From Sphingomonas sp. R647 (GTDB lineage Bacteria; Pseudomonadota; Alphaproteobacteria; Sphingomonadales; Sphingomonadaceae), in the NCBI RefSeq assembly GCF_020177055.1, contig NZ_JAIQXT010000005.1, positions 310,001 through 374,000 of the forward strand: a stretch of DNA of 64,000 bases, given 5' to 3'. Each line of letters opens with the position of its first letter. Within the stretch, counting starts at the first letter, position 1. Shown here in pieces: positions 28,762 to 61,167 of this stretch. The notes beneath the pieces are model-generated. The model had not been told where the DNA came from. It searched no databases and saw only the letters and a program-made list of their open reading frames with translations. Made by a program: the position numbers and the translations under genes.

Positions 28762-28795
28762 GGGGGCATCCTAACGGCATGAAGATGCTTGGGAC

Positions 28796-28821
28796 AGCCT
28801 CGCCGACCAACCGGCGAGGCT
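28796..28821 (-). terminator. perfect hairpin downstream of the sigma-like gene
   Basis: A 10 bp stem (AGCCTCGCCG / CGGCGAGGCT) with a 6 nt loop, between the sigma-like stop (28829) and the frameshifted MNT-HEPN gene. There is no T run, so it may be a processing or weak terminator structure. Confidence 0.45.
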
Positions 28822-28828
28822 GCAATGT

Positions 28829-38059: not shown

Positions 38060-38062
38060 GGC

Positions 38063-44027: not shown

Positions 44028-46771
44028 GCAGCGGCTCCTTTGGTAAATGCGGGAGTGATGGAAGTCGGGCGGGCAATCCCGCGTTCGATGTCATGAAGAA
44101 GGCCGCCACGCCTTGTGTAGGCGAACCAGGTCAGCGCGGCGCAGCTGGCGTAGAAGATCAGGAAACCCCACAGGGCCGCCATCGGCGAGCCGGTCGCGGC
44201 GATCGCGCTGCCGAAGCTCTTCGGGATGAAGAAGGCGCCATAGGCCGCGATCGCCGAGGTGAAGCCGACGATCGCCGCCGATTCCTTCTCCGCCTGGCGC
44301 AGTTGGGCTTCGGCGGGCAGGTGCGGCATCAGGCGCGGGACTTCACGGCGCATGATGTTGGGGATCATCTGGAAGGTGGAGGCGTTGCCGACCCCGGTCA
44401 TGAAGAACATGAAGATGAACCCGGCGAGGAAGCCCCACCAGCTGCCCGCGTCGATCGCCGCCATCACCCCGAGCACGCCGAGGATCATCAGCACGAACAC
44501 CCAGAAGGTAACCCGCGCCCCGCCCCAGCGATCCGATACCCAGCCGGTGCCTGCACGGCTGAGCGCGCCGACCAGTGGGCCGAGAAAGACGAACTGGAGC
44601 ACGTCGACCTGCGGAAATTGCTGCTTGGCGAGCAACGGCAGCCCGGCGGAGAAGCCGATGAAGCTGCCAAAGGTGCCGGTATAGAGCCAGCACATCAGCC
44701 AGTTATGCTTGCGCTGGAAGATCACCGCCTGCTCGGCAAAGCTCGCCTTGGCATCGGCAATGTCGTTCATTCCGAACCAGGCCAGCAGCGTGCTGGCGAT
44801 GATGAACGGCACCCAGATGAAGCCGGCATTCTGCAGCCACAGCTGGCCGCCGGTAGCCGTCTCCTGGCCCGCCCCGCCCAGCGCGCCGAACACGCCTGCG
44901 GTGATGATGAGGGGCACGGCGAACTGCATCACGGAGACGCCCAGATTGCCGAGCCCCGCGTTGAGCGCGAGGGCGTTGCCCTTCTGCGCCTTGGGAAAGA
45001 AGAAGCTGATGTTCGACATCGACGAGGCAAAATTGCCGCCGCCAAAGCCGCACAGCAGCGCCAGCACCAGGAAGATGAAATAGGGCGTATCCGGGTTCTG
45101 GACGGCATAGCCGATGCCAAAGGCCGGGATCAGCAGTGACGCGGTGCTGAGCGTCGTCCACAACCGCCCGCCAAAGATCGGGACCATGAAGCTGTAGAAG
45201 ATGCGGAACGTCGCACCGGACAGGCCGGGCAGCGCCGCCAGCCAGAAGAGCTGGTCGGTGGTATAGGCAAAGCCGATCACCGGCAGCTTTGCGACAACGA
45301 CCGACCACACCATCCACACCGCAAAGGCGAGCAGCAGCGCCGGAATCGAGAGGGTCAGGTTGCGCCGCGCGATGCGTTCGCCCTGGGTGCGCCAGAAATC
45401 GGGATCCTCGGGCGTCCATTGCGTCAGCACCCGGCTGGGCTGGGCAGCGGCGTGGCGGTCCGCGTCATGCAGGTCCGCCATTTCGGGGAATTGCGGCAGC
45501 GAGCGCGCGTCGATTCCGCTGGCCTTCTGTTCCATCTGGCGGATGGCGATGTGCATCCAGGCGAGCGCAACGCCGACCAGGGCAAACAGGACCATGAAGC
45601 AGCTGGTCCAGATGCCGGTCAGGTCGCTGACTGCACCGAACACGATCGGCAGCACGAACCCGCCAAGCCCGCCGACCATGCCCACCATGCCGCCGACCGC
45701 GCCGACATGATTCGGGTAGTAGACCGGGATGTGTTTGAACACCGCCGCCTTGCCGAGCGACATGAAGAAGCCGAGCACGAACACGGTAACGACGAACGGT
45801 ACCAGACCCATCGAGGTGGTGAAGGTGATGTCGCCATCAATGCCGTGGATCACATAGTCGGTCGCCGGATAGGACAGCATGAACAGGCAGATCAGCGACA
45901 CGCCGAAGGTCGCGTACATGATCCGGCGCGCGCCATATTTGTCCGACAGCATCCCGCCATAGGCGCGGAACAGGCTGGCCGAGAGCGAGAAGGTCGCCGC
46001 GAGCATGCCCGCGACCTTCACGTCCACGCCATAGAGGCCGACCATATATTGCGGCAGCCACAGCGCGAGCGCGACAAAGGCGCCGAACACGAAGAAATAA
46101 TAGAGCGAGAAGCGCCACACCTGTTCGTTGCGCAACGGGGCGAGCTGATCCTTGAGGCTGCGCGCGCCGATCCCCGCTGCCTTGCGTGCGGCATAGTCGG
46201 GGTCGTCGCGCGCGAACAGGTAGAACAGCACCGCGACGACCGCGAGCGTCCCGGCCCATATCTGCGCCACCCCCTGCCAGCCGACCGCGACCATCACCCA
46301 CGGGGCGAGGAATTTGGTCACCGCCGCGCCGACATTGCCCATGCCGAAAAAGCCGAGCGCAGCGCCCTGCCGCTCGATCGGATAGAATTTAGAGACATAG
46401 GCGACGCCAACCGCAAAGCCGCCACCCGCCAGGCCCAGGCCGAGCGCAGCGAGCAGCATGAGATAGTAATTGCCGCTGTAGGACAGCAGGAAGGTCGCCG
46501 CCGCCGAGCCGAGCATGGTCAGCGGAAACACGATCCGCCCGCCGAACTGGTCGGTCCAGATGCCCAGCATGAGGCGGACCAGCGACCCGGTCAGGATCGG
46601 CGTGCCGACCAGCAGACCGAACTGGGTATCGTTGAGGCCGAGCTCTGCCTTGATCTCGATGCCGATGATCGCAAAGATCGTCCACACGGCAAAACAGATT
46701 GTGAAGGCAAAGGTACTCAGCCCAAGGGCGAGCCCCTGTTGTCCTTCTGTTGCTGGCTGTCCGGCCCCCAT
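44024..46771 (-). CDS. narK: fused two-domain nitrate/nitrite transporter (NarK1-NarK2 type)
   Basis: Encodes 915 residues and about 24 membrane helices. Two MFS transporters are fused head to tail: residues ~1-440 and ~470-915, joined by a hydrophilic linker near ALTQWTPEDPDF. Each half has a nitrate-signature glycine segment (GLGLAGGGFAVGVAYVSKF in the first, LLCGFGGGNFASSMSNISF in the second) and a membrane arginine (GSLVRLMLG, GATFRIFYS). In Paracoccus such fusions combine a nitrate/proton symporter with a nitrate/nitrite antiporter. It is the first gene of the nar operon, with an FNR-type box upstream. Confidence 0.95.
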   Translation of the reverse strand: MGAGQPATEGQQGLALGLSTFAFTICFAVWTIFAIIGIEIKAELGLNDTQFGLLVGTPILTGSLVRLMLGIWTDQFGGRIVFPLTMLGSAAATFLLSYSGNYYLMLLAALGLGLAGGGFAVGVAYVSKFYPIERQGAALGFFGMGNVGAAVTKFLAPWVMVAVGWQGVAQIWAGTLAVVAVLFYLFARDDPDYAARKAAGIGARSLKDQLAPLRNEQVWRFSLYYFFVFGAFVALALWLPQYMVGLYGVDVKVAGMLAATFSLSASLFRAYGGMLSDKYGARRIMYATFGVSLICLFMLSYPATDYVIHGIDGDITFTTSMGLVPFVVTVFVLGFFMSLGKAAVFKHIPVYYPNHVGAVGGMVGMVGGLGGFVLPIVFGAVSDLTGIWTSCFMVLFALVGVALAWMHIAIRQMEQKASGIDARSLPQFPEMADLHDADRHAAAQPSRVLTQWTPEDPDFWRTQGERIARRNLTLSIPALLLAFAVWMVWSVVVAKLPVIGFAYTTDQLFWLAALPGLSGATFRIFYSFMVPIFGGRLWTTLSTASLLIPAFGIGYAVQNPDTPYFIFLVLALLCGFGGGNFASSMSNISFFFPKAQKGNALALNAGLGNLGVSVMQFAVPLIITAGVFGALGGAGQETATGGQLWLQNAGFIWVPFIIASTLLAWFGMNDIADAKASFAEQAVIFQRKHNWLMCWLYTGTFGSFIGFSAGLPLLAKQQFPQVDVLQFVFLGPLVGALSRAGTGWVSDRWGGARVTFWVFVLMILGVLGVMAAIDAGSWWGFLAGFIFMFFMTGVGNASTFQMIPNIMRREVPRLMPHLPAEAQLRQAEKESAAIVGFTSAIAAYGAFFIPKSFGSAIAATGSPMAALWGFLIFYASCAALTWFAYTRRGGLLHDIERGIARPTSITPAFTKGAAA

Positions 46772-46834: not shown

Positions 46835-46848
46835 TTGATCAGGATCAA
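46835..46848 (-). promoter_or_regulatory. FNR/FixK box upstream of narK
   Basis: TTGATCAGGATCAA is a perfect TTGAT-N4-ATCAA palindrome centred 70 bp before the narK ATG. That distance fits a class II activator site at about -41.5 with a ~29 nt leader. Confidence 0.88.
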
Positions 46849-46927
46849 AAAGGGAGATTGGGCGCGACGAAAAGTCGGCCCGCCTGACCTATGCCGCGCA
46901 AGATGCCGACGCGGATCAACCCCCTGA

Positions 46928-46941
46928 TTGATCAGGATCAA
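46928..46941 (+). promoter_or_regulatory. second FNR/FixK box, narK-regulator spacer
   Basis: An identical TTGATCAGGATCAA copy, 93 bp from the first. It is centred about 50 bp before the regulator's ATG 46985. It may autoregulate that gene or assist narK. Confidence 0.82.
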
Positions 46942-46984
46942 TTTTACCGCTAGGCTCCGGACTGACCGGAGATGAAGTGAATTG

Positions 46985-47677
46985 ATGCGAATCGGCGAAA
47001 AGCCCGAAATTGCCCGTCTGCCCCTGTTCGGCGACATGGAAGAGGGGATGCGCGAGCGCGTGCTTTCGGGATCGTTCCTCCAGGTGTTTCCGCCACAGCT
47101 GATGCTGTTCGAAACCGGCCAGCGCGCCGATTTCCTGCATGTGCTCGTCGATGGTCTTGCCGAACTCTATGTGACCGCGTCAGGGCGCGACACGACGATG
47201 CGGATTGTCGAGCCGGTCAACAGCTTCATCCTCGCGGCGGTGGTCACCGACCTGCCCTATCTGATGTCTGCGCGCACGCTGGTCGCGTCGCGCGTCCTGC
47301 TCGTGCCCGCAGCCTTGATGCGCGAGGTGATCCGCAAGGACACCGCGCTGATGCAGGCGACGATGCATGAGCTGGCGCTGGGATATCGCGATTTCGTCCG
47401 CGCGCTCACCGACCTCAAGATGCGCCAGTCGACGGAGCGGCTGGCCAACCATCTGCTCGACTATAGCGCCCAGCGCGGCGGCGCGAACGCGTTCGAACTG
47501 GGGGGGGAGAAGCGGATGGTCGCGTCGCTGCTCGGCATGACGCCGGAGAATCTGTCGCGCGCCTTCGGCACACTGCGTAGCCATGGGATCGAGATATCCG
47601 GCGCCCGTGTCCAGATCACCGATCGCGCGGCGCTTGCCGCCTTTGCCCGGCCCGATCTGGTGCCGCCCGACCGCTGA
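46985..47677 (+). CDS. Crp/Fnr-family regulator divergent from narK (NarR-like)
   Basis: Encodes 230 residues from ATG 46985, with GGAGATGAAG upstream. It has a cyclic-nucleotide-type sensor domain (residues ~15-130) and a winged helix (KRMVASLLGMTPENLSRAF). It lacks the N-terminal cysteine cluster of FNR, so it does not sense oxygen by Fe-S. Position and type fit NarR, the nitrate/nitrite-responsive activator of narK-narGHJI in Paracoccus, but the DNR or NnrR subgroups are also possible. Confidence 0.85.
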   Translation: MRIGEKPEIARLPLFGDMEEGMRERVLSGSFLQVFPPQLMLFETGQRADFLHVLVDGLAELYVTASGRDTTMRIVEPVNSFILAAVVTDLPYLMSARTLVASRVLLVPAALMREVIRKDTALMQATMHELALGYRDFVRALTDLKMRQSTERLANHLLDYSAQRGGANAFELGGEKRMVASLLGMTPENLSRAFGTLRSHGIEISGARVQITDRAALAAFARPDLVPPDR

Positions 47678-47695
47678 CCGGCGGCACCAGCGCGT

Positions 47696-48910
47696 TCAGA
47701 AGCCCAGCTGCACCGAAAACCACGCCTTGGTCGTGTCGGTCGCGAACCGGTCGGCGCGATAGCGGGCGAATTTGGCGGTCACCGACAAGTCGGGGCGGAT
47801 CGGATAGTGCCCCAGCAAGTCGAGCTCGCCGCCATAGCGCCGGTCGATCGCGGTGGCGCGGAAGTCGTGATAGATCGCGCGCAACGCCAGCCCCTTGAGC
47901 GGCGACCCGGCACCGAAACGATAGCCCAGCTCGCCATAGAGGTCGCGCAGCCCGGTCGCCGGAGTGGTCAGGAATTTGTCGGCCCAGCCGTTAAACGCGT
48001 GCAGCGTGGCGAGCGGCGTCTGCACCGCCACCACCCCATTGCCGTCGAGCCGTTCCAGACCGGCCTTTGCCGTCCAGCCACCACGCGCTATGCCCGGTTC
48101 GACGAGCAGATAGCCAAGATCGAACCGGACCGGACCGCGCCCCCAATCCGTCTGCCGCGCATAATCGACGACATAGGTCAGGCTGAATCCACTCCCCACC
48201 GGACGTGCGCCCGAAATGCGTGCACCCAGAGTCCGCGACTGCGTCCCCAGCAGCGGCAAATCGAGCCAATAGCCATAGGCCGACAGCTCACCGACCGGCT
48301 TTGCCTGATAGGAGATCTGCGCGGCATGGATCCTGGCATCGCGCACCACGCCCTGCGGCGAGTCGGGCCCGAACACCCGATCCACCCGCCAGCTGTGCAG
48401 CGCGTCGAGGGTGAGTCCGGCCCGTGGACGCAGCGTCACCCGTGCCAGGTCAAGGGTCTGGTCGTTCTGACGCCAGTCGACCGAGCCGATCCAGCGCTGG
48501 TTGCCAAGATTGACGTTGCGCCGCCCCACCGACAGCTCAATTGCGGCATCGGGGCGCCAGTGGACATAGGCCTGGTTGAGATGGACCAATCCGGGGTCCG
48601 CCACCACCGGATAGCTGGTCTTGCCGTTCACCGTGTCGTTGAACCATTCAGGCCCTGGCCGGGCGACGGTTTCGCCCTCGACGTGCAGGCTCAGCCCCTT
48701 CCAGGCATCGAGCCGCGCGCCGGCCCGCAGCCGCAGGGTCGAAGCGGCGGCCGTTTCGGGCAGGCCAGCCTGATCGACCAGCTCGACCCGGTAGCGCAGC
48801 TCCACATAGGGATCGATCGAAGGTGCGGATGACTCCTGCGCCTGTGCCGCTACCGGCATGGCAATCAGCGGCAGCAGCGCGAGCGGGATCAGGGGCAGGC
48901 GATTGTCCAT
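47696..48910 (-). CDS. alginate-export-type outer-membrane protein in nar region
   Basis: Encodes 404 residues with a signal peptide (LPLIAMPVAAQAQE). It is a beta-barrel of the alginate export group: YVELRYRVELVDQ, QAYVHWRPDAAIELSVGRR, RWIGSVDWRQNDQT, and a final aromatic (KAWFSVQLGF). Similar porins occur beside nitrate and nitrite respiration genes and may admit these anions. It is convergent with the NarR-like gene and divergent from a membrane-protein gene, with a weak FixK-type box between them. Confidence 0.8.
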   Translation of the reverse strand: MDNRLPLIPLALLPLIAMPVAAQAQESSAPSIDPYVELRYRVELVDQAGLPETAAASTLRLRAGARLDAWKGLSLHVEGETVARPGPEWFNDTVNGKTSYPVVADPGLVHLNQAYVHWRPDAAIELSVGRRNVNLGNQRWIGSVDWRQNDQTLDLARVTLRPRAGLTLDALHSWRVDRVFGPDSPQGVVRDARIHAAQISYQAKPVGELSAYGYWLDLPLLGTQSRTLGARISGARPVGSGFSLTYVVDYARQTDWGRGPVRFDLGYLLVEPGIARGGWTAKAGLERLDGNGVVAVQTPLATLHAFNGWADKFLTTPATGLRDLYGELGYRFGAGSPLKGLALRAIYHDFRATAIDRRYGGELDLLGHYPIRPDLSVTAKFARYRADRFATDTTKAWFSVQLGF

Positions 48911-48943
48911 GCGCGATTGCTAGCCCATCGCCACGACCGGCAT

Positions 48944-48957
48944 TTGATCTGGCGCAA
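48944..48957. promoter_or_regulatory. weak FixK-type box between porin and membrane-protein genes
   Basis: TTGATCTGGCGCAA fits TTG[A/C]-N6-[T/G]CAA but is not a full palindrome. It is only ~40 bp from the porin ATG and ~35 bp from the divergent ATG, close for an activator site. Confidence 0.35.
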
Positions 48958-48985
48958 CTTTTCCCGGCACATCTGGTGCACGGTC

Positions 48986-49462
48986 ATGTCGATGGAGATC
49001 GACTGGTTCACCCTCGCCCGCGTCCTGCACGTCGTGTCCGTCGTCGGATGGATCGGCGGAGTCTGGTTCGTGACCTTTGTCATCATGCCGGCGGTCACCC
49101 GGGCGGAGCCGCCCCAACGGCGGCTCGTGGCATTTCACCGGATCGAACAGGGATTTTCGGCGCAGGCGCGCTGGTGGGTGGCGATTGCCGGCGGATCCGG
49201 CTTCTGGATGACGTGGCAGGCGGATCTGTGGTCGCGTTTTACCGATCCGGGAATGTGGTGGATGCATGCGATGCTGGCGTTGTGGCTGGTGTTTGCGCTA
49301 ATGCTGTTCGTGATCGAACCGCTGACGCTGCACCGGCGCATGGCGCATTCGCCCGCCCCCGCCGCTGACTGGCGGCGGATGGTGCGGCTGCATCGCATCC
49401 TGTCGGTCGCGGCGCTGATCACACTCCTTGGCGCGATGGCTGGAGCGCATGGCCTGATCTAG
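48986..49462 (+). CDS. four-helix membrane protein (CopD-like)
   Basis: Encodes 158 residues from ATG 48986. About four membrane helices carry histidines near their ends: ARVLHVVSVVGWIGGVWFVTF, WVAIAGGSGFWMTW, MWWMHAMLALWLVFALML, RLHRILSVAALITLLGAMAG (each read in part). The layout resembles CopD or DUF2269-type proteins, some of which bind heme or copper. Its place between nar and fixK/hemN suggests a respiratory role, but none can be assigned. Its 3' end overlaps the convergent fixK-like gene by 44 bp. Confidence 0.7.
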   Translation: MSMEIDWFTLARVLHVVSVVGWIGGVWFVTFVIMPAVTRAEPPQRRLVAFHRIEQGFSAQARWWVAIAGGSGFWMTWQADLWSRFTDPGMWWMHAMLALWLVFALMLFVIEPLTLHRRMAHSPAPAADWRRMVRLHRILSVAALITLLGAMAGAHGLI

Positions 49463-50189
49463 GGTCGCGCGTGATGAACGCGTCGGATGCAGGTGCGCGT
49501 GGCTCGACATTGCCCGCCTGACGCGCCAGTTCCGCCGCATCGTGCAGGATCACGCACGATCGGCCGCGGGTTTCGATGATCCCGGCATCCTTCAGCTCAC
49601 CGATCTGACGGCTCACGGTTTCGATCGTGAGGCCGAGGCTGTCGGCAATGTCCCGCCGCGACATCGGCAGGTCCATGCATCCCGGCACATGATCGCGGCA
49701 GTCGAGTCGCTCGGCCATCGCCAGCAGAAATCCGGCGACGCGTTCGCGCGCGGTCTTCTGCCCCAGATTCACCGCCTTGTCCCGACAGCGGAACAGGGCG
49801 GTTTGCGAGCGTTCGAGCAGGAGTCGCAGCACGCGTGGGCTGACCGCTGCGCGATCATAGAAGCCTTGCGCTGGAAACAGCGCCAGGCTGCAATCGCGCA
49901 ACGCCGTGAGCACATGGCGATGCAGCCCTTCGGCCGGGATCGAGATGATGTCCCCGGCAAAGTGAAAGGCGACGATCTGCTGCCGCCCGCGTGATGCGAG
50001 CGCCCCGAGCTTGGTCGCGCCATCGGCCACGAAGGCGAGTGTCGCGATGGTCGAATCGGTTTCGAGCGTTTCGCCCCGACGGACCCGGACCCGGCGACCG
50101 ATCTGATCGATCTGACGCGCGAACTCGCCCGCCGCGTCGATGCCCAGCAGCGCGCGCAGGACGGTCGAACACGGATCGGCATGTACCAT
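49419..50189 (-). CDS. fixK: Crp/Fnr-family regulator, FixK-like
   Basis: Encodes 256 residues from ATG 50189; the frame is open far upstream but only this start lies below the FNR box. The DNA-recognition helix (MSRRDIADSLGLTIETVSRQIG) has the E-x2-S-R pattern that reads TTGAT sites. There is no N-terminal C-x2-C cluster, so it is FixK-type rather than an Fe-S FNR. FixJ in this window could drive it, as in the rhizobial FixLJ-K cascade. It is divergent from hemN with a shared box. Confidence 0.83.
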   Translation of the reverse strand: MVHADPCSTVLRALLGIDAAGEFARQIDQIGRRVRVRRGETLETDSTIATLAFVADGATKLGALASRGRQQIVAFHFAGDIISIPAEGLHRHVLTALRDCSLALFPAQGFYDRAAVSPRVLRLLLERSQTALFRCRDKAVNLGQKTARERVAGFLLAMAERLDCRDHVPGCMDLPMSRRDIADSLGLTIETVSRQIGELKDAGIIETRGRSCVILHDAAELARQAGNVEPRAPASDAFITRDPRSGHALQPSRQGV

Positions 50190-50246
50190 CGCGCGCCTTT
50201 TCTTCGTCGGCTGGCTGCGATCATGCCTGTGTTCAGCAGCACTCAA

Positions 50247-50260
50247 TTGATGGAGATCAA
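50247..50260. promoter_or_regulatory. FNR/FixK box between fixK and hemN
   Basis: TTGATGGAGATCAA is a perfect TTGAT-N4-ATCAA site centred 64 bp from the fixK-like ATG and 122 bp before the hemN GTG. It can serve either promoter and implies autoregulation. Confidence 0.87.
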
Positions 50261-50375
50261 ATGCGATGCAGCGGCCGCCCGGTTCCCCCGATCGCCATCC
50301 GGTGCGTTCCCGAGGCGAAGTCTTCCGGCACAGGAGGTAGAGCCGGTCAAGCCCTACTCCAAGGAGCCACGCCGA

Positions 50376-51728
50376 GTGACCCCCGACCTGCTCGCCCGCT
50401 ACGCCGACCGACCGCTGCCCCGCTATACGAGCTACCCGACCGCACCGCATTTTGCGGCCGGGATGGATGGCGCCGACTATGCTGCCTGGCTTGCCGCGCT
50501 GCCCCCGGAGGCGCCGGTGTCGCTGTATCTGCACGTCCCCTTCTGCCGGTCGATGTGCTGGTACTGTGGATGCCACACCGCGATTACCGCTCGCGAAGCG
50601 CCGGTCACCCGCTACCTCGACGCGCTGTCGCGCGAGATCGACTGGGTGGCTGAACAGATCGGGCATGCGCAGCCCGCACGCCATGTCCATTTCGGCGGCG
50701 GAACGCCCAGCCTCATGCAGCCGGGGCAGTTCGTGGCGCTGATGGACCGGCTGCACCAGCGCTTTCGCTTTGATGATATGAGCGAGGTCGCGATCGAGAT
50801 TGACCCGCGCACGCTGGCCCCGGCGATGACCGCGGCACTGGCAGAAGGCGGGGTGACTCGCGCCAGTCTTGGCGTCCAGAGCTTTGATCCGAAAGTTCAG
50901 CGCGCGATCAACCGCGTGCAAAGCCTCGCCGAAACGGCGGCGGCCACCGAAGGACTGCGCGCCGTCGGCATTGCGGCGGTAAATTTCGACCTGATCTATG
51001 GCTTGCCCTACCAGACGCTGGAGTCGTGTCGCGACACGGTGGCCCAGGCGCTGACGCTATTGCCCGACCGCTTTGCCGTCTTTGGCTATGCCCATGTTCC
51101 CGACTTCAAAAGCCACCAGCGCAAGATCCACGCCGCGACCCTGCCCCGTGGTGCCGAGCGCCATGCGCAGGCGGAGGCAATAGCCGCGTTGCTGCAGGAC
51201 GCTGGCTATGTCCGGATCGGGATCGACCATTATGCACGCCGCGACGACCCGCTCGCCATTGCCGCCCGATCGGGCACGCTGCACCGCAATTTTCAAGGCT
51301 ATACGACCGACGCCTGCGATACGCTGATCGGGTTTGGCGCTTCATCGATCGGGCGGTTGCCCATGGGCTATGTGCAGAATGCCGTCCGGATTGACGCCTA
51401 TCGCGACGCCGTCGATCGGGTGGGGACGGCGATCGCGCGGTCCTGTCGCTTCAGCGAACAGGACCGGCTGCGCGCCGAGATCATCGAACGGCTGATGTGC
51501 GACTATAGCGTCGATCTCCCCGAAATCTGCGCACAGCACGATGCGGATCCCACGGCGTTGATCGCCAGCGCCAGAGGGCTCGGCGCGCTGGAGGAGGACG
51601 GGCTGATTACCGTGCGCGACGGCGTGATCGCCGTCGCGCCGGGGGCACGACCGCTGGTGCGGGCGGTTGCCGCCGCGTTCGATGCCTATCTCGACGGCAG
51701 CCCGGCGCGCCATTCACGCGCCGTCTGA
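50376..51728 (+). CDS. hemN: oxygen-independent coproporphyrinogen III dehydrogenase
   Basis: Encodes 450 residues from GTG 50376, chosen because AAGGAG is 9 bp upstream, because the FNR box lies before it, and because family similarity starts at PDLLARYADRPLPRYTSYPT. It is a radical-SAM enzyme (C-x3-C-x2-C in FCRSMCWYCGCH) that makes protoporphyrinogen without oxygen. HFGGGTPSLM and GLPYQT are typical. It supports heme synthesis during anaerobic nitrate growth. Confidence 0.94.
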   Translation: MTPDLLARYADRPLPRYTSYPTAPHFAAGMDGADYAAWLAALPPEAPVSLYLHVPFCRSMCWYCGCHTAITAREAPVTRYLDALSREIDWVAEQIGHAQPARHVHFGGGTPSLMQPGQFVALMDRLHQRFRFDDMSEVAIEIDPRTLAPAMTAALAEGGVTRASLGVQSFDPKVQRAINRVQSLAETAAATEGLRAVGIAAVNFDLIYGLPYQTLESCRDTVAQALTLLPDRFAVFGYAHVPDFKSHQRKIHAATLPRGAERHAQAEAIAALLQDAGYVRIGIDHYARRDDPLAIAARSGTLHRNFQGYTTDACDTLIGFGASSIGRLPMGYVQNAVRIDAYRDAVDRVGTAIARSCRFSEQDRLRAEIIERLMCDYSVDLPEICAQHDADPTALIASARGLGALEEDGLITVRDGVIAVAPGARPLVRAVAAAFDAYLDGSPARHSRAV

Positions 51729-51746
51729 TCCGCCCGCCCGCGCCGT

Positions 51747-53993
51747 TCAACTGCAGCGCGAATAGCCGCATTCAAGACAGCTGGCGCAACCCTCCGACTT
51801 GATCAGCGCCGCCGCACCGCAGTGCGGACAAGAGCGCGGCACCGCCTGCACGCCCGGGTCGGCCGCTGCCTGATGGTCGGCCGACGGCGCTGCGGGCGCA
51901 GCGCCCTCCCCCGGCTCAAGACCGGCGATATGCCGTTCGATCACCCCGCCGATCGCAGCCGGCAGCGACGGGACATAGCGGCCATGGATCCACCCGCCGC
52001 CGCGCGGATCAAACACCGCCTTCAATTCCTCGGCGACGAAGGACACGTCGGCGGCCCGGCGGAACACCGCCGAAATCATCCGCGTCAGCGCCAACGTCCA
52101 GGCATAATGCTCATTATTCTTCGAATTGACGAAAATCTCGAACGGTCGTCGCCCTTCGCCGCTCTCGACATCGTTGATCGTCACATAAACCGCGTGCGGC
52201 CCGTCGGGCCAGCGCAGTTTGTAGGTGGTGCCGTCGAGCGCTTCGGCGCGGGGCGCGAGCGCCTGGTCGGTCGCGACCACCGCGTCGACCTTGGGGGTGG
52301 GCGTGGTGCTGAGGATCGATCCGGTCACCGGGTTGGGGCGATAGGTGGTCAGCCCTTTGCAGCCGAGATGATAGCCCTCGATATAGATGTCGGCAAAGGC
52401 GTCGAAGTTGATATCCTCCGGGCAATTGACCGTTTTGGAGATTGAACTGTCGATCAACGCCTGGGCCGCGGCCTGCATCGTCAGATGGTCGGATGGCGTC
52501 AGCGTCTGGGCGCTGACGAACAGCGCTTCGGGCGGCGGCAGATCGCCCTTCTCGCGACGCCAGACCTGCATCGCGTAATCCTCGACCGCCTGCTCGCGCG
52601 TGCTCCCGTCGGGCTGACGGATCCGGCGGGTATAGGCATAGGCAAAGACCGGCTCGATCCCGGAGGAGACATTGCCCGCCAGCAGCGAGGTGGTGCCGGT
52701 CGGCGCGATCGAGGTCAGGCAACCATTGCGCAGGCCATAGGCTTCGATCAGCGCCCGGGTTTCGGCATCGAGCGATGCAATGTTCGGCCGCTCGAGCATC
52801 ACTTCGTCATAGGTCGGGAAGCTGCCCTTCTCCTCTGCCAGCATCGCCGAGGCGCGATAGGCTTCGCGCTTGATCACCCCCAGCCAGCGCCGGGTCAGCG
52901 CGACCGCCGCACTGCTGCCATAGGTAGCGCCGCAGAACAGCAACGCATCGGCAAGGCCGGTGATGCCCAGCCCGATCCGGCGCTTGGCGCGCGCTTCGGA
53001 TTCCTGTTCGAACAAGGGATAGCGCGACAGATCGATCACATTGTCGAGGAAGCGGACGGCGGTACGGGTGAGGTCCGCCAGCGCCTCCTCATCAAGTTCG
53101 GCACCGTCGGCAAAAGGCCGCTCGACCAGCCGGGCGAGGTTGATCGAGCCCAACAGGCAAGCCCCATAGGGGGGCAGCATCTGCTCGCCGCACGGATTGC
53201 TCGCCGCGATGCTCTCGCAATGCGCCAGATTGTTGGCGGCGTTCACGCGATCGACAAAGATCACGCCCGGCTCAGCGGTGTCATAGGTCGCGCGCATCAA
53301 CCGCTCCCACAGCGCCCGCGCCTTGACCGTGCGATAGCATTGCCCGCCAAAGACCAGCGGCCAGTCGCCATCCGCGGCCAGCACCTGCATGAAGGAATCG
53401 GGCACCAGCACCGACACGTTGAAATTGCGCAGGCGCGCCGGATCCCGCTTGGCGTCCATGAACGCCTCGATATCGGGATGGTCGATGCGCAGACAGCCCA
53501 TCATCGCGCCGCGCCGCTGCCCTGCCGACTCGACGGTGCGACACATCGCGTTCCAGCAATCCATGAAGCTGAGCGGGCCGGATGCCTCTGCACCGACGCC
53601 GCGTACCGCGCTGCCCGATGGGCGGATCGTCGAGAAATCCATGCCGACGCCACCACCCTGCTGCATCGTCATCGCGGCTTCGCGCAGATGCGCGAATATG
53701 CCTTCAAGACTGTCGGGGATCGTCCCCATGACGAAACAGTTGAACAAGGTGACCGAACGCTCGGTCCCGGCCCCCGCCAGTATCCGGCCAGCGGGGATGA
53801 AGCGGAAATCCCGCAACGCGTCCTCGAACCGCGCGCGCCAGACCGGGCGCAGCGCCTCCACCTCCACCTCGGCAACGGCGGCCGCGACGCGGGCGATGGT
53901 CGCGTCGATCGTGGAGTCACCCTCCCCCGGCGCGGGCGAAAACCGGTATTTTGCGGTCCAGATTTCTTCGGCCAGTGCGTTCTCAAAGTCCAT
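51747..53993 (-). CDS. nrdJ: adenosylcobalamin-dependent (class II) ribonucleotide reductase
   Basis: Encodes 748 residues from ATG 53993. It reduces ribonucleotides using B12, with or without oxygen. Motifs: FNCFVMGTIPDSLEG, GGGVGMDFSTIRPSG, the finger-loop region SNPCGEQMLPPYGAC, NGCLTSIAPTGTTSLLAGN, and a C-terminal cysteine tail (SCPHCGAAALI, CASCLECGYSRCS) for redelivery of reducing power. It is convergent with hemN. A FixK-type box centred 64 bp upstream suggests low-oxygen induction, matching its anaerobic role. Confidence 0.94.
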   Translation of the reverse strand: MDFENALAEEIWTAKYRFSPAPGEGDSTIDATIARVAAAVAEVEVEALRPVWRARFEDALRDFRFIPAGRILAGAGTERSVTLFNCFVMGTIPDSLEGIFAHLREAAMTMQQGGGVGMDFSTIRPSGSAVRGVGAEASGPLSFMDCWNAMCRTVESAGQRRGAMMGCLRIDHPDIEAFMDAKRDPARLRNFNVSVLVPDSFMQVLAADGDWPLVFGGQCYRTVKARALWERLMRATYDTAEPGVIFVDRVNAANNLAHCESIAASNPCGEQMLPPYGACLLGSINLARLVERPFADGAELDEEALADLTRTAVRFLDNVIDLSRYPLFEQESEARAKRRIGLGITGLADALLFCGATYGSSAAVALTRRWLGVIKREAYRASAMLAEEKGSFPTYDEVMLERPNIASLDAETRALIEAYGLRNGCLTSIAPTGTTSLLAGNVSSGIEPVFAYAYTRRIRQPDGSTREQAVEDYAMQVWRREKGDLPPPEALFVSAQTLTPSDHLTMQAAAQALIDSSISKTVNCPEDINFDAFADIYIEGYHLGCKGLTTYRPNPVTGSILSTTPTPKVDAVVATDQALAPRAEALDGTTYKLRWPDGPHAVYVTINDVESGEGRRPFEIFVNSKNNEHYAWTLALTRMISAVFRRAADVSFVAEELKAVFDPRGGGWIHGRYVPSLPAAIGGVIERHIAGLEPGEGAAPAAPSADHQAAADPGVQAVPRSCPHCGAAALIKSEGCASCLECGYSRCS

Positions 53994-54049
53994 GCGCGTC
54001 CTCACTGCAATGCTGAGATGACAGTCTGGCGCGCGGGCGGTGGGCCGAC

Positions 54050-54063
54050 TTGACCTGACTCAA
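54050..54063 (-). promoter_or_regulatory. FixK-type box upstream of nrdJ
   Basis: TTGACCTGACTCAA fits TTG[A/C]-N6-[T/G]CAA with one change from a perfect palindrome. It is centred ~64 bp before the nrdJ ATG, the same spacing as the narK and fixK sites. Confidence 0.7.
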
Positions 54064-54111
54064 ATGCGGAACTGACCGGCCTTTTTTGTGAGGCGGCGAC
54101 TAAGATCGCTT

Positions 54112-54147
54112 AAAAAAAATCGGCGGCAGGGGATCACCGCTGCCGCC
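54112..54147 (-). terminator. rho-independent terminator of the fnr transcript
   Basis: Read leftward: GGCGGCAG stem, 10 nt loop, CTGCCGCC, then GA and eight Ts. It lies 75 bp after the FNR gene stop and also separates that gene from nrdJ. Confidence 0.9.
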
Positions 54148-54222
54148 AAGTCGTGGAGGGTTTGGGTACAACCCAATTGCCGGGGTACGTGCTTACGCGC
54201 TCGGCCGCTTGCGCCAGCTCAA

Positions 54223-54990
54223 TTATGCCCGCGCCGGCGCGAATTTGACGTCGCTCATTTCCCAGCGACAGGCACTGTCGCGCAGCGCCACCGGGTCCAA
54301 AATATAGAGTTCATGCACCCCCAGCATGCGGATCAGCCCGGCCGCCTTCAATGCGCCCAGCTCGCGACTGACCGTTTCGATCCGCAACCCAAGATAATCG
54401 GCCATGTCCATACGCGACATCGGCAGCGCGACGCGTCGCGGTTCACTCGGAAATTGTTCTGAATGGTTCGCCATGTCGAGCAGGAAACTTGCGAGACGTT
54501 CGCTCGCCGTCTTTCGGCCCAACAGGACCACTTGCTCGCGCACCACCGTCAACTCGCGCGCGGCGGCGGCATAGAGCCCCTTTTGCATCTGCGGATGCGC
54601 GCTGACGAACGCGTCGAACCGCGTGCGACTGAACTGACACAGTTCGGCGCTGCCGATTGCCTCGGCGGTAAAGGGATGCTCCTCCTCCAGGGTGAGACCG
54701 ATGAAGTCCCCCGGAAAGGCAAAGCCGGTCACCTGTCGCCGACCGTCGGGCAAGTGCCGCGACAGGCGCAGCGCGCCATTGGTCAGGGTGTAGACATGCG
54801 TCACCGCATCGCCCTCCCAGCACAGCGCCTGGCCCGGCGACAATTTGCGGGTGACCCCGTTGCGGCGATATTCAGCCAGCTCGACCTGAGTCAGCGTGTT
54901 GCACAGGGCGGTGTCGCGGACCGTGCAACCATGACAGGGATGCCCCAGCGCGATATGCGGGTCAGCGGTAGCCAGATTGCTGAAATACAT
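54223..54990 (-). CDS. fnrL: oxygen-sensing Fe-S regulator FNR/FnrL
   Basis: Encodes 255 residues. The N-terminal cysteines C19-x2-C22-x7-C30 plus C118 (SAELCQF) match the [4Fe-4S] ligands of alphaproteobacterial FnrL/FixK1-type regulators. The helix-turn-helix reads MSRMDMADYLGLRIETVSREL, with the E-x2-S-R contact set for TTGAT. It should activate the boxes in this window when oxygen is low. It follows a lone receiver gene by 36 bp. Confidence 0.92.
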   Translation of the reverse strand: MYFSNLATADPHIALGHPCHGCTVRDTALCNTLTQVELAEYRRNGVTRKLSPGQALCWEGDAVTHVYTLTNGALRLSRHLPDGRRQVTGFAFPGDFIGLTLEEEHPFTAEAIGSAELCQFSRTRFDAFVSAHPQMQKGLYAAAARELTVVREQVVLLGRKTASERLASFLLDMANHSEQFPSEPRRVALPMSRMDMADYLGLRIETVSRELGALKAAGLIRMLGVHELYILDPVALRDSACRWEMSDVKFAPARA

Positions 54991-55026
54991 GCGATTTCCC
55001 CTCTTCGATGCGTTCGCCGATAGCGT

Positions 55027-55410
55027 TCAGGCGTGGAGCGGGCGTGCCACTTGCTTGATCAATTCCCGCGCGACCGTGGCGAGTTCGTCGCAGAGCAATG
55101 GCTTTTCGACCAACCGGGCACCCACCGCCCCTACCCGCTCAAGCAGGCGCGGGGTCGGGTTGCTGGTGATGATGATCGCCGGCGCCTGTTCCCCCGACGC
55201 GTGCAGCCAGGCGAGCAGCGAGAGCCCGTCCATCCCCGGGAGCCGCTGGTCGATCACGACACATGCGTATCGTCGCGACATTTCCCGCCCGACAACCTCC
55301 TCCGCGCTTTCGAACGCAGCGACGTCGAACCCTTCGATTTCGAGCGCGAAGCTGATCGATGATCGCACTGCGGGGTCGTCATCGACAAGAAGGATGCTGG
55401 GACGGGACAT
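55027..55410 (-). CDS. single-domain response regulator (FixJ-like receiver)
   Basis: Encodes 127 residues with only a receiver domain: acidic pocket DDD at 10-12, phosphoacceptor D54 (VVIDQRLPGMDG), ITSN and the lysine in VEKP. There is no output domain. It may compete with FixJ for phosphate from FixL or pass it on, like FixJ-associated single receivers in rhizobia. It lies between the alternative oxidase and fnrL. AAAGGA precedes the ATG. Confidence 0.87.
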   Translation of the reverse strand: MSRPSILLVDDDPAVRSSISFALEIEGFDVAAFESAEEVVGREMSRRYACVVIDQRLPGMDGLSLLAWLHASGEQAPAIIITSNPTPRLLERVGAVGARLVEKPLLCDELATVARELIKQVARPLHA

Positions 55411-55440
55411 AGCAACAGTCCTTTGGGCGACGGTCCTTTG

Positions 55441-55461
55441 GGGGCGGCGTTGTGCCGCCCC
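55441..55461 (-). terminator. hairpin between alternative oxidase and receiver genes
   Basis: GGGGCGGC / GCCGCCCC with a 5 nt loop, 9 bp after the oxidase stop. There is no T run. Two copies of GTCCTTTGGG follow it. It may partly end the oxidase transcript or process the mRNA. Confidence 0.5.
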
Positions 55462-55469
55462 GCATGAGG

Positions 55470-56159
55470 TCAGGCGGCCTGTTTCCAGACGGGCTCAAGC
55501 GCCTGATGCGGCGGACAAGGCGCCACCGCACAAGGCGGCAGTCCGGCCAGTTCGTTGGCATAGCCATGGTTGACGTCGCGATGATGCGCCTCGTCCGCCC
55601 GCACGACGAGCACCACGTCGCGCAGCGTCGCGTCTTCGGCCAGCCCCCAATAGCGCTTCGCGATTTCCGGCGCGGGAACATTCTGCGAGCGCCCCTCGTC
55701 GATCTCGGCCAGATAATGAGTGTAGCTGATGACCGCCTCTTCCTCGAAATAACCGACGACGCGGTGCGCGGTCTTTGCGCTGATCAGGTAGAGCGCGAAA
55801 AAGGCGAGGTAGAACACCCATTGCGCGCCGAGGATCACCGCGCGCTCATACCAGGTCGGCTTGCACACCGCGACGAAGGTCATGAGGTGCATCCGCTCAT
55901 TCTCCGCCTCGTCCATCAGCGTCTTGATCCAGCCGCGATCGTCACACATGCGGCGCAGGCTTTTGAGGTGATTAAGCGTCGCGCCGACCATTCCCGGCAC
56001 CGCGGCAACCGTCTCCAGCACGACCGCACGATGCCCGTAGCGCTCCGCGAAAAACGTGTCGGCGATCCAGCGCAGGCTCTTGGTAAAGCCGAGGGCAACC
56101 CGGTCGGACAGCCCGCGCGGGGCGTGGTGAACGGTGAGGTCGATATACGGGGCAATCAT
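55470..56159 (-). CDS. aox: bacterial alternative oxidase (cyanide-insensitive ubiquinol oxidase)
   Basis: Encodes 229 residues. All di-iron motifs of the alternative oxidase family are present: [10 protein letters not shown] (E49), NERMHLM (E88, H91), [12 protein letters not shown] (residues 138-149) and [12 protein letters not shown] (E190, H193). Two hydrophobic helices anchor it on the membrane. It oxidises ubiquinol and reduces oxygen to water without pumping protons. It is reported in few bacteria, including Novosphingobium. Here it heads a leftward set with a receiver and fnrL and is divergent from fixLJ, so control by oxygen or nitric-oxide stress is likely. Confidence 0.93.
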
Positions 56160-56186
56160 TTTGAATTATCCTTTCCGCCTGGATAT

Positions 56187-56200
56187 TTGATCCACAGCAA
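56187..56200. promoter_or_regulatory. FixK-type box between aox and fixL
   Basis: TTGATCCACAGCAA fits TTG[A/C]-N6-[T/G]CAA, one base off the full palindrome. It is ~34 bp from the aox ATG and ~128 bp from the preferred fixL start, so it is better placed for fixL activation or aox repression. Confidence 0.45.
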
Positions 56201-56321
56201 GTGCATGGCGGATTCTAGGCTGCGACTGCGGGAGCGGGAATTGGGTTTTCATCCTAAGGGACGCACCGGAGGTGACAGCGGCGCCGGAGCCGCGTTCCCG
56301 CCGACGCTGAAGGACGGCGCG

Positions 56322-57800
56322 GTGCCGCGCCCGCTGCTCGACCGGCTCGACCCGGTCTCGTCGCTGGTGGCTGCCCTTGTGGTGATCGCAGTCGCCTTTG
56401 CGCTCCGCCTCGCGCTCGATCCGCTGTTGCAGGAGCGGGCAACCTATATCTTCTTCGTCCCCGGAGTGGTGATCGCCGCACTGGGCGGCCTGCGCCCCGC
56501 GCTGCTCACGACCGCGCTGGGCGCGGGAGCGGGCGTGCTGGCCGACAGCATGACCGGTCAGGTTCTCACCGGGGACTGGATCGCCGCCAGCGTGTTCCTG
56601 GCGATCGGCACCGCGATCGCGGCGGGCGGCGCGTGGCTGCATCGTGCGCGCGAACGCGCGGCGGAAATCACCCGCCAGCTGTCGGCGCGGGAAGCGCATC
56701 TCACCTCGATCCTCAAGACCGTGCCGGACGCAATGATCGTGATCGACGAAGCCGGGCTGATCCGCGATTTCAGCGACACCGCCGAGCGCCAATTCGGCTG
56801 GCGCGCCGACGAAGTGACGGGGCGCAACGTCTCCATGCTGATGCCCTCCCCCTATCGTGAGGCGCATGACGGATATCTCCAGCGCTATTACCGCACCGGA
56901 GAGCGGCGGATCATCGGCGTCGGCCGCGTTGTGGTGGGCGAGCGCAAGGACGGATCGACCTTTCCGATGGAGCTGGCGGTTGGCGAAATGGCGCTGGCGG
57001 AAGGGCGATTCTTCACCGGCTTTGTCCGCGACCTCACCGAACGGCAAAAGACCGAGACACGGCTTCAGGAATTGCAGAGCGAGCTGGTCCATGTCTCCCG
57101 CCTCACCGCGCTGGGCGAAATGGCGTCGGCGCTGGCGCATGAACTCAACCAGCCGCTCAGCGCGATCGGCAATTATCTGATGGGCAGCAAGACGTTGCTG
57201 GGCCGCGACCCGGTTCCGCACGAACGGGTCGCCGACGCGGTCGATCGCGCCGCCAAGGAAGCGCTGCGCGCTGGCGAGATCATCCGCCGCCTGCGCGATT
57301 TCGTGTCGCGCGGCGAAACCGAGCGGCGGCTGGAAAGCCTGCCCAAGCTGCTGGAAGAGGCGAGCGCGCTGGCGCTGGTCGGCGCCAAGGAGCATGACGT
57401 GCGGGTGCGGATCGACATCGACCCCGTGATCGACTTGGTGCTGGTCGACAAGGTGCAGATCCAGCAGGTGATCCTCAACCTCGTCCGCAACGCCGTCGAC
57501 GCGATGACCGAGAGCGAGCGACGCGCACTGTCGATCCGTGTCCGCCCGGCGGGCGACGGTATGGCCGAGGTCATCGTCGCGGATACCGGCCCCGGCATCC
57601 ATCCGGACATTGCCGGGCAATTGTTCCAGCCCTTTGTCACGACCAAGCGGACCGGGATGGGGGTCGGCCTGTCAATCTGCCGCACGATCGTGGAGGCACA
57701 TGGCGGGAACATTTCGGTCGGTGACACACCGGACGGTGGCGCCACCTTCCGCTTCACCATTCCCAGCGTCAGTAAGGAGGAACTTGAGAATGCCAGCTGA
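56322..57800 (+). CDS. fixL: heme-PAS oxygen sensor histidine kinase FixL
   Basis: Encodes 492 residues from GTG 56322, preferred because AAGGA lies 7 bp upstream; an in-frame ATG at 56205 would add 39 residues. It has membrane helices at about 15-35, 42-75 and 85-105, then a PAS domain with the proximal heme histidine H182 (REAHDGYL) and distal arginine R202 (GVGRVV), matching B. japonicum FixL H200 and R220. The kinase histidine is H273 (AHELNQPLS), with N, G1 ([12 protein letters not shown]) and G2 (GMGVGLSI) boxes. It phosphorylates FixJ when oxygen is low. Its stop overlaps fixJ by 11 bp. Confidence 0.93.
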
Positions 57801-58401
57801 GCCGGTGGTTCATATCGTCGATGATGACGAAGGCGTGCGCAGCTCGCTCTCCTTCCTGCTCGAATGTTCGGACCTGACGACCCGCACCTATGAATCGGCG
57901 GTCGAGTTCCTGAAGGCGGTCCCGACGATGGCCCGCGGCTGTATCATCACCGATGTGCGGATGCCGCAGGTCAGCGGGATGGAACTCGTCGCCCGGCTCA
58001 AGGATCTTGGCGTCGGCGACCCGGTGATCGTCATCACCGGCCATGCCGATGTTCCGATGGCGATTGCTGCGCTGCGCCAGGGAGTGGCCGACTTTATCGA
58101 AAAGCCGTTCAGCGACGAGGCGATCCTGCTCGCGGTGCGTTCGGCGCTGGCCAAGCAGCAGAGCCGCGGCGAGGTCGAGATCGAACGCGACGCAATCCAG
58201 CAGCGGCTGGCGACCCTGTCCGGACGCGAACGCGAGGTGATGGACGGTCTGATCCTTGGCAAGGCGAACAAGGTTATTGCCTTTGACCTCGATATCAGCG
58301 CCCGGACGGTCGAGGTCTATCGCGCCAATGTGATGACCAAGATGCGCGCCCGGACCCTATCCGAACTGGTCCGCATGGCGATGATCGCACAGCTGGGCTG
58401 A
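57790..58401 (+). CDS. fixJ: response regulator FixJ
   Basis: Encodes 203 residues. The receiver covers about 1-125 with D55 ([12 protein letters not shown]), VITGHAD and EKPFSD. A LuxR-type helix-turn-helix follows ([39 protein letters not shown]). In rhizobia, phosphorylated FixJ activates fixK. The overlap with fixL shows co-translation. Confidence 0.94.
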
Positions 58402-59261: not shown

Positions 59262-59381
59262 GGCCTGAACCTTCAATGTGAGAAGCGACGCAGGTAGGAT
59301 GCCAACTCGCACCCTTGCCGCCAATTCGGTCACGTCCCTAAGGGCGCTACCGGAGGTGGGCCGGCGCGTCGCCGCAGGCGC

Positions 59382-60602: not shown

Positions 60603-61167
60603 TTGCCGCCTAGTGGTCGCCGCCTCCCATGCTGGCCACTCGGGAGCGCGACCTAGGGGGGATACCGGATAGACGCTTTAACTCAGGACCTAGTCAATTC
60701 GACGATCGTGCTGAGCGGCACCTCGCGATGATCCGGAATGGCCGCAGCGGCGCGACGAGCCGGCAGCCCATCGTTGCCCAGACAATCTACAATGATATAT
60801 GCGGGAGGAGCCGACTGGGGACGTTCGATCGCAGCTACACCAAACTGGCGGAAGCCACCCTTGGCACCGTCCCGGAACGTGCCGCCGATCTCGGCAACAT
60901 CTGCAAGCGGACGGTCACTGATCGCCGCGACGAGGGTGTTGAGCCCAACATCGAAACACACACAGCCCCGCGCGCGCCCCGGCAAACGACGTCAACGCAG
61001 CCCGCCAAGGTCCACCAACGGCTGACCAAAAGCACTGATGATCTTCGAACAAGTCTCGCGTTGACATAGTCCAATCTCAGCTGCCAAATGGGGCACATGG
61101 GGATCGCGATCACCCCATGAGGCGAAAGGCTGAAGTATCGCGTCCTGCATATCTTAAGGGACGCGTC
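60603..61167. other. intergenic region before the chromate operon, no confident gene
   Basis: A 565 bp stretch. A 100-codon leftward frame (60,683-60,985, containing AISDRPLADVAEIGGTF) and a 146-codon rightward frame overlap it. Neither shows a known family or a good ribosome site, and the leftward frame seems to continue in another frame upstream, so it may be a decayed gene. A near-palindrome GATCGCGATC sits at about 61,102. AAGGG precedes chrB. Confidence 0.4.

Follow-up and report, generated by a model that had tools for sequence, protein, structure and literature searches.

The respiratory island of Sphingomonas sp. R647 probably has two regulatory tiers, one in which Crp/Fnr-type boxes serve nitrate respiration and the ribonucleotide reductase gene nrdJ, and one in which the FixLJ pair acts on a different, conserved element upstream of the alternative oxidase gene aox. 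The predicted first tier (FNR/FixK) is essentially known by homology and is supported by conservation. For sphingomonads at large, we give about even chances to the proposal that FixLJ directly controls NO-tolerant and high-affinity respiration (aox, the single-subunit NO reductase and, in some species, cbb3) via CTCCGGT-N4-CCCTTAG, both in parallel to and upstream of the Fnr/FixK nitrate regulon. The first-pass annotation of the window (the whole analysed stretch of 64,000 nucleotides) had tied six boxes into a single FNR/FixK regulon. This is supported for narK, narR, porin/copD, fixK and nrdJ by box conservation and by the measured homologues in Sphingopyxis granuli TFA; it is not supported for aox/fixL and is doubtful for hemN.

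The minus strand carries narI, narJ, narH and narG (37358..44027), which match the corresponding NCBIfam models above cut-off as well as Pfam, and narK (44024..46771), whose 915-aa product matches the NCBIfam NarK family over two stretches and is apparently a fusion of two transporter halves. Divergent from narK is a Crp/Fnr regulator gene (46985..47677, plus strand) with an NCBIfam FtrB match above cut-off and no cysteine in its translation; a narK match adjoins it in all 24 loci. Paracoccus NarR is a Crp/Fnr regulator without a cysteine cluster and is divergent from the nar operon. The regulator of the island, designated here as narR, shares the missing cysteine cluster and the divergence from nar, but its best family match is FtrB. 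NarR has been named as a relative of ftrB (PMC7713065).

Next come genes for a porin-like outer-membrane protein (47696..48910, minus strand; Pfam Alginate_exp, 23.2 bits, just below the cut-off of 25.2), a CopD-like membrane protein (48989..49462, plus strand; Pfam CopD, 24.3 bits, below the cut-off of 32.1) and a FixK-type Crp/Fnr regulator (49419..50189, minus strand; best NCBIfam match FixK, 113 bits, below the cut-off of 300). The N-terminal cysteine cluster motif was absent from this FixK-type protein and was found in 0/30 fixK-family N-termini. Both hemN, encoding oxygen-independent coproporphyrinogen III oxidase (50376..51728, plus strand; start codon inferred), and nrdJ, encoding the B12-dependent ribonucleotide reductase (51747..53993, minus strand), are above the cut-offs of their NCBIfam models (hemN and NrdJ_Z). 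An Fnr protein of the FnrN/FnrL type (54223..54990, minus strand) has an N-terminal C-x2-C-x7-C cluster and a Crp-type helix-turn-helix (HTH_Crp_2), and its best NCBIfam match is FnrL (161 bits, below its cut-off of 300).

The remainder of the island consists of a FixT-like single-domain receiver (55027..55410, minus strand; Pfam Response_reg), aox (55470..56159, minus strand; Pfam AOX, 1.1e-84), fixL and fixJ, and nnrS (59382..60581, minus strand; Pfam NnrS, 7.5e-110; start codon inferred). The fixL product is a PAS histidine kinase (56322..57800, plus strand; start codon inferred) that matches the FixL chains 8js5 and 1dp6 and Pfam PAS, HisKA and HATPase. It is paired, judging from sequence matches, with FixJ (57790..58401, plus strand), a Pfam-supported receiver plus LuxR-type HTH protein that matches FixJ 5xso (E 1.2e-55) and whose HTH closely matches a solved FixJ. 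The receiver is a single domain beside FixLJ, as is FixT, and is retained beside aox in most relatives bearing the aox element. No ccoN was found among the three COX1 matches of the genome, as judged by reading their translations; two of the three are presumably ctaD and coxA.

All six boxes reported earlier were recovered, at 46835, 46928, 48944, 50247, 54050 and 56187. Three of the six are perfect TTGAT-N4-ATCAA boxes, a number reached in 0 of 200 shuffles of the window (mean 0.01). The loose form TTG[A/C]-N6-[T/G]CAA, weaker on its own than the perfect form, occurs 9 times against a shuffle mean of 2.85, and 1 of 200 shuffles reached 9. In the whole 4.15-Mb genome there are 4 perfect boxes versus 0 for the backwards control (the box pattern reversed and run on the same loci or genome), and 84 sites with at most one mismatch versus 8. 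Three of the 4 perfect boxes lie inside 3.4 kb of the window and the fourth upstream of cyoA outside it; all precede respiratory or regulatory genes. From 37358 to 60600, where 1,375 of 23,243 bases are noncoding under the chosen gene set, all four sites with at most one mismatch are noncoding, and those with exactly two mismatches comprise 2 noncoding sites and 8 that run into coding sequence. Promoter-region boxes typical of an alphaproteobacterial FNR/FixK regulon are present above chance.

The claimed spacing of 64–70 bp was also confirmed, with distances from box centre to start codon of 70.5 (narK), 64.5 (fixK) and 63.5 bp (nrdJ); such boxes would fit class II activation, as judged by start-codon spacing alone. 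The corresponding distances are 50.5 bp for narR, 40.5 bp for the porin gene, 34.5 bp for aox and about 122 bp for hemN, and the last two do not suit a presumptive activator site at -41.5.

Footprinting supports five of the boxes (the narK/narR pair, porin/copD, fixK and nrdJ) as candidate operators; all boxes are given without strand. The perfect box TTGATCAGGATCAA occurs on the narK side (46835..46848) and again on the narR side (46928..46941). Among 24 narR loci, own included and with the near-identical pairs L203/L204 and L218/L219 in the set, the narK-side (distal) box is present with at most one mismatch in 22 and the narR-side (proximal) box in 23, against 0/24 for either backwards control. 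Between the porin-like and CopD-like genes, TTGATCTGGCGCAA (48944..48957; two mismatches) has a counterpart with at most one mismatch in 9/9 evaluable relatives, the other narR loci having no porin start; the backwards control, covering 8 of these 9, gave 0/8. The perfect box TTGATGGAGATCAA (50247..50260) lies between fixK and hemN. Within 300 bp of fixK, a box with at most two mismatches was found in 29/29 relatives and one with at most one mismatch in 24/29 (backwards control at two mismatches or fewer, 1/30). For nrdJ, whose box TTGACCTGACTCAA (54050..54063) has two mismatches, a box of at most two mismatches is located at 50–85 bp in 17 of 24 sphingomonad-type loci, the remaining 7 being without one, and within 300 bp in 55/80 loci (backwards control 1/80). 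These 24 loci were chosen by record title, except L120 (titled "Proteobacteria bacterium"), and L117 is hardly independent because it is 99% identical to the window.

The suggested control of hemN via the box at 50247 is doubtful at its distance, yet a box within 300 bp was present in 4/20 other hemN loci at one mismatch or fewer and in 9/20 at two or fewer, with genome G075 counted twice among the 20 (L118 is the same contig). Genomes G163 and G075 are not among the 4, and their best box-like sites before hemN have 4 and 2 mismatches, respectively. The description of the regulon as self-contained was wrong: cyoA, at a distance of some 165 kb, has a perfect box upstream, and another Fnr-like protein, with C-x2-C-x7-C in its sequence, is encoded on contig C10. 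Most cyoA loci examined are without such a box: with at most one mismatch at 63.5 bp it was found in 3 of the best 30 (that of R647 counted), and two at 91–92% identity do not have it.

The first tier can be compared with the homologous FnrN/FixK regulon measured in TFA (PMC7713065). As in the island, TTGA(c/t)-N4-(g/a)TCAA boxes precede narU, nrdZ, fixK and hemN2 in TFA, and several lie between narU and the divergent NarR-like ftrB. The TFA boxes are mostly at about -41.5, with that of fixK measured at -60.5 instead, and cyoABCDsurF1regBA is induced anaerobically. The two organisms differ at cyoA, which has no Fnr site in TFA by its authors' inspection and has a perfect box here, and in cbb3, which is present in TFA and has no ccoN counterpart among the COX1 matches of R647. 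The TFA fixK is said to carry a cysteine motif, in contrast to the fixK-family N-termini described above, and its relation to the fixK of the island is one of likeness rather than established orthology (PMC7713065). These data add a second genome, with broad conservation, to a regulon so far measured in one sphingomonad.

Box conservation at orthologues, observed for the two nar boxes and for those of porin, fixK and nrdJ, fails at aox. The box-like sequence TTGATCCACAGCAA (56187..56200; one mismatch) between aox and fixL is probably not functional and was rejected as an FNR target; among 68 other aox genes of the family, one has a box with at most one mismatch upstream (0/29 in one set and 1/39 in another), and a different element is conserved there. 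This element, CCTCCGGTGCGTCCCTTAGGA (56252..56272, minus strand; consensus CTCCGGT-N4-CCCTTAG), is a predicted FixJ operator. Across 347 genomes of the family there are 16 exact sites, of which 14 lie 94–110 bp before aox, versus 1 for the backwards control. For a score matrix, 26 aox loci (that of R647 among them) served as the training set, and 4 loci without divergent fixL were left out by design. On leave-one-out scoring, the element reached the threshold of 8 bits in 25/26 aox genes with divergent fixL, the exception (L240) scoring 6.0 at the expected place; the 4 others, scored apart, gave 0/4. Outside the training set, it was found in 5/5 aox loci with divergent fixL (L118, L119, L134, L178 and L185) at 9.1 (L134) to 21.3 bits, but neither in L132, an aox locus without fixL, nor in any of 39 further aox genes, of which 37 are without fixL in the stretch and the other 2 have a co-directional fixL downstream. 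Overall, aox genes without a divergent fixL neighbour have the element in 0/44 cases. The S. meliloti FixJ site, as given in PMC4999443, has the same right half (CCCTTA), and 9/16 positions are alike in the best register, a likeness that is not convincing alone.

A matrix scan of 1.39 Mb at a threshold of at least 17 bits yielded 16 matches versus 0 for the reversed matrix, with none in the Caulobacter and Phenylobacterium loci. In some sphingomonad-type loci, the element also precedes NorB-type genes (G163, G075 and L121) or ccoN (L120 and L121; 2/9 evaluable ccoN loci, L140 being excluded because its score came from beyond the end of the locus). It further precedes FixK-like genes in 8 Caulobacterales loci, three of these scanned. 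In the same search, it was found at 9/30 fnr-like gene matches, in 8 loci, one being a second regulator in L136, and at 0/2 sphingomonad-type fixK matches. In G163, which is without an aox match, the element sits between fixL and the receiver.

Binding of the element by a regulator other than FixJ, for example NsrR or RegA, is unlikely, though the most probable of the alternatives. Such a regulator would agree with the main response of TFA aox to NO and the presence of nsrR and regBA in that strain (PMC6472365), with the element at NorB-type genes, and with 7 of the 13 loci with an element of at least 17 bits (L120, L121, L138, L156, L160, L165 and L171), whose stretches have no fixL match. 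The element nevertheless tracks divergent fixL beside aox (25/26 and 5/5 versus 0/44), and in some Caulobacterales it precedes FixK-like genes, the known FixJ target. We consider it very unlikely that all six boxes form one FNR/FixK regulon with the box at 56187 acting on aox or fixL. Although that box is one base off the perfect consensus and noncoding, it is not conserved, its centre is just 34.5 bp from the aox start, and TFA aox is NO-responsive and does not appear in the list of operons with Fnr boxes in the available parts of the TFA reports (PMC7713065, PMC6472365).

Least probable, and hardly to be expected, is that the element does not act as an operator and instead reflects, on the other strand, where translation of fixL begins (its ribosome-binding site and initial codons). 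The fixL strand partly reads GGAGGTGA, resembling a ribosome-binding site, the element overlaps or abuts the fixL 5' reading frame in most loci, and fixL frames often pass through it. Stops are rare between the element and fixL (in-frame in 3/27 loci examined, one of the 3 without a true fixL), so a coding constraint may act on the element. Against a translation-start origin, NorB-type, ccoN, FixK-like and Nfu-region genes have the element without an adjacent fixL start, and, with the alignment read by eye, the window and the long-form relatives pass through it in different frames.

With FixJ as the preferred binder, a working model can be drawn. In the first tier, Crp/Fnr dimers (the cysteine-bearing Fnr, the FixK without a cysteine cluster and the NarR/FtrB-like protein) would use TTGAT-N4-ATCAA boxes before narKGHJI, narR, porin/copD, fixK, nrdJ and the distant cyoA, the pairing of protein with box being putative. 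In the second, FixL (the PAS kinase) together with FixJ, the presumed binder of the observed element, would act before aox and drive a likely aox–receiver–fnr run. Alternative oxidases are generally tolerant of NO. A NO-tolerant oxidase, a FixT-like receiver and Fnr would all be coupled to FixLJ, which would raise Fnr, and Fnr would switch on nitrate respiration; aox could also respond without Fnr.

The PAS kinase, FixJ and nearby single-domain receiver resemble the FixLJ-FixK-FixT system of Caulobacter crescentus, and fixK is the conserved FixJ target in Caulobacterales (PMC7078487, PMC4999443). Unlike in Caulobacter crescentus, the element here precedes aox rather than fixK, and the receiver has 2 cysteines rather than the 4-cysteine motif of Caulobacter FixT. 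The available part of a comparative study records FixLJ in Caulobacterales and Rhizobiales and names none in Sphingomonadales (PMC4999443), and searches of the open-licence PubMed Central literature turned up no paper in which FixLJ controls aox in a sphingomonad. The alternative oxidase of Vibrio fischeri is likewise NO-linked but is controlled by NsrR (cited in PMC6472365), in contrast to the regulator proposed here, whose element is tied to divergent fixL. If the proposal is true, direct FixJ targets would extend beyond fixK, in a group without FixLJ named in PMC4999443, and FixLJ would be the missing regulator of NO-linked aox induction in TFA. The aox element offers a concrete, testable answer to a question raised by the TFA papers, namely what turns aox on when nitrate respiration makes NO.

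A genome scan for the element at up to three mismatches gave noise (23 and 19 sites versus 57 and 57 for the control). A weak copy with two mismatches (60652..60670, minus strand), about 70–90 bp upstream of nnrS, falls below the 10-bit threshold of the matrix scan and is indistinguishable from chance. A second copy in the window, CCTCCGGTAGCGCCCTTAGGG (59336..59356, minus strand), precedes a short reading frame of about 70 aa and an Nfu-like gene, and in G163 the element (15.7 bits) likewise lies upstream of the Nfu region.

The island on contig C8 of the window genome (G000, 4.15 Mb) comprises narKGHJI, a divergent gene for a NarR/FtrB-like regulator, porin-like and CopD-like genes, fixK, hemN, nrdJ, a cysteine-bearing fnr, a single-domain receiver gene, aox, fixL-fixJ, an Nfu-like gene, and nnrS. 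The window itself spans C8:310001–374000. Relatives identified by protein matches bear Sphingomonas-type names. Convincing nrdJ orthologues were found in only 5 of 151 genus genomes, its own included (100, 84, 82, 68 (partial), and 47% identity), and the remaining matches were mostly at ~30–33% identity. Therefore, nrdJ is sporadic in the genus, and we infer the same for the island.

The first-pass annotation proposed that six FNR/FixK-type boxes (TTG[A/C]-N6-[T/G]CAA; window 46835, 46928, 48944, 50247, 54050, and 56187) define one self-contained low-oxygen regulon. All six are present at the sequence level. The window contains three perfect sites (TTGAT-N4-ATCAA), as against a mean of 0.01 in shuffled sequence. 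The whole genome contains four (none for the pattern read backwards), and 36 same-genus genomes contain 110 (2 for the control; summed from the per-genome table). A similar box density in coding regions would have spoken against the proposal; in the annotated stretch, of which 1,375 of 23,243 bases are noncoding, 4/4 sites with at most one mismatch were noncoding. The fourth perfect box of the genome (C8:191042; 6043–6056 of the compared locus L016) is located 63.5 bp before cyoA. The cyo genes (also covered by locus L325) are followed on the box strand by SURF1, a RegB-type kinase whose match was below the cut-off, and a RegA-like frame.

Five of the boxes are kept in relatives. A narK match adjoined narR in all 24 loci, and the proximal and distal boxes between them were present with at most one mismatch in 23 and 22 of these, respectively (own locus included; backwards 0/24 for both). 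The porin box was kept in 9/9 evaluable relatives (backwards 0/8), and the fixK box in 29/29 relatives with at most two mismatches and 24/29 with at most one (backwards 1/30 and 0/30, respectively). A box with at most two mismatches was found within 300 bp of nrdJ in 55 of 80 loci versus 1 of 80 backwards; in three sets of intragenic 280-bp control stretches, it occurred in 3, 6, and 7 of the 80 loci. In contrast, the box between aox and fixL was found with at most one mismatch in 0/29 and 1/39 other aox genes in two sets, and this part of the six-box proposal was not supported.

The proposed regulon belongs to a known kind, because the same kind has been measured in Sphingopyxis granuli TFA (PMC7713065). 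The TFA consensus is TTGA(c/t)-N4-(g/a)TCAA, the boxes are centered at -41.5 (nrdZ), -42.5 (hemN2), and -60.5 (fixK), and narU has three Fnr boxes upstream with a divergent NarR-like ftrB (PMC7713065). The aox gene marks a limit of the single scheme: aox is absent from the list of TFA operons with Fnr boxes (PMC7713065), and TFA aox (SGRAN_1792) responds to NO. Its induction was ~450-fold under anaerobiosis with nitrate; the figure was ~17-fold when nitrate was left out or narG was mutated, and 70-fold with NO but no nitrate (PMC6472365). The TFA authors suggested NO as the signal (PMC7713065).

Alignment of aox upstream regions revealed a conserved block that is missing from the earlier list, CTCCGGT-N4-CCCTTAGG (window 56252–56272, minus strand). 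The exact pattern occurs at 16 sites in 347 family genomes, and once when read backwards. Fourteen sites lie 94–110 bp before aox, one is at window 59337, and one is at a contig end of the compared genome G411. In leave-one-out scoring, 25 of 26 aox genes with a divergent fixL scored at least 8 bits, as did none of the four aox genes lacking it (reversed 0/30). Among aox loci outside the training set, the element was present in 5/5 with a divergent fixL (L118, which is genome G075, L119, L134, L178, and L185) and absent from L132, which has no fixL. It was found at 0/39 remaining family aox genes, of which 37 had no fixL in the stretch and two had a co-directional downstream fixL.

The element also occurs at other genes. 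A scan of the 80 nrdJ loci (1.39 Mb) at a threshold of at least 17 bits gave 16 matches versus 0 reversed; these are spread over 13 loci, with a fixL match in the stretch in six and none in the stretch examined in seven. At 12 bits or more within 350 bp upstream (reversed 0 for every gene), it preceded aox (4/6), hemN (2/19), NorB-type genes (1/6), and fnr-like genes (9/30, in eight loci of Brevundimonas and other Caulobacterales), and was not detected before window-kind fixK (0/2), nrdJ (0/80), nnrS (0/52), or narK (0/34). For three element-bearing fnr-like genes that were scanned, FixK was the best match (192–205 bits, below the cut-off of 300). The element preceded ccoN in two of nine evaluable cases (L120 and L121). 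In L120 it is found at 8326 and 11012, before a TonB receptor gene and ccoN, and in L121 at 15617 and 18299, including before ccoN; neither stretch examined contains a fixLJ match. Genome G163 has no aox match; there, one copy of the element lies in the fixL–receiver interval and another upstream of a NorB-type gene. In G075, aox and a NorB-type gene each have the element upstream. These single-subunit NorB-type genes lie near nnrS (L109 994–4648 in G163 and L112 4314–6605 in G075), and that of G163 is divergent from the 5-aminolevulinate synthase gene. As judged by eye from the translations, NorB is not among the three COX1 matches of the window genome.

The element is a candidate FixJ operator, because it tracks divergent fixL at aox and precedes FixK-like genes in some Caulobacterales, where PMC4999443 describes fixK as the conserved FixJ target. 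The window FixJ has an HTH that closely matches a solved FixJ. The Sinorhizobium meliloti FixJ site has the same right half (CCCTTA) and the same 6-4-6 layout; the overall agreement of 9/16 is weak taken alone. The assignment to FixJ is weakened because the element overlaps the fixL reading frame (an in-frame stop separates them in 3/27 loci) and because some element-bearing loci lack a visible fixL. From the observed sites, conservation, and gene order, we infer the binding, direction, signal, and operon structure of a two-tier scheme. Low oxygen, and perhaps NO, would act through FixL on FixJ, which would act on aox and, as the gene order suggests, on the receiver gene and fnr. Together with FixK and NarR, Fnr would act on the TTGAT boxes of nar, the porin gene, fixK, nrdJ, and cyoA.

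The Nfu-like gene (window 58419–59044) extends over two frames, with the Nfu_N domain in one ORF and the NifU domain in another, reflecting either a frameshift or a sequencing error. The interval from rpoBC to the island contains genes for HEPN-domain and ArdC-type anti-restriction proteins (window 27861–30237), which may point to mobile DNA. On the far side of the island are ChrB-type and chromate transporter genes (window 61117–63416). Outside the island, another Crp/Fnr-type protein with a C-x2-C-x7-C stretch is encoded at C10:87308 of the same genome (L331).
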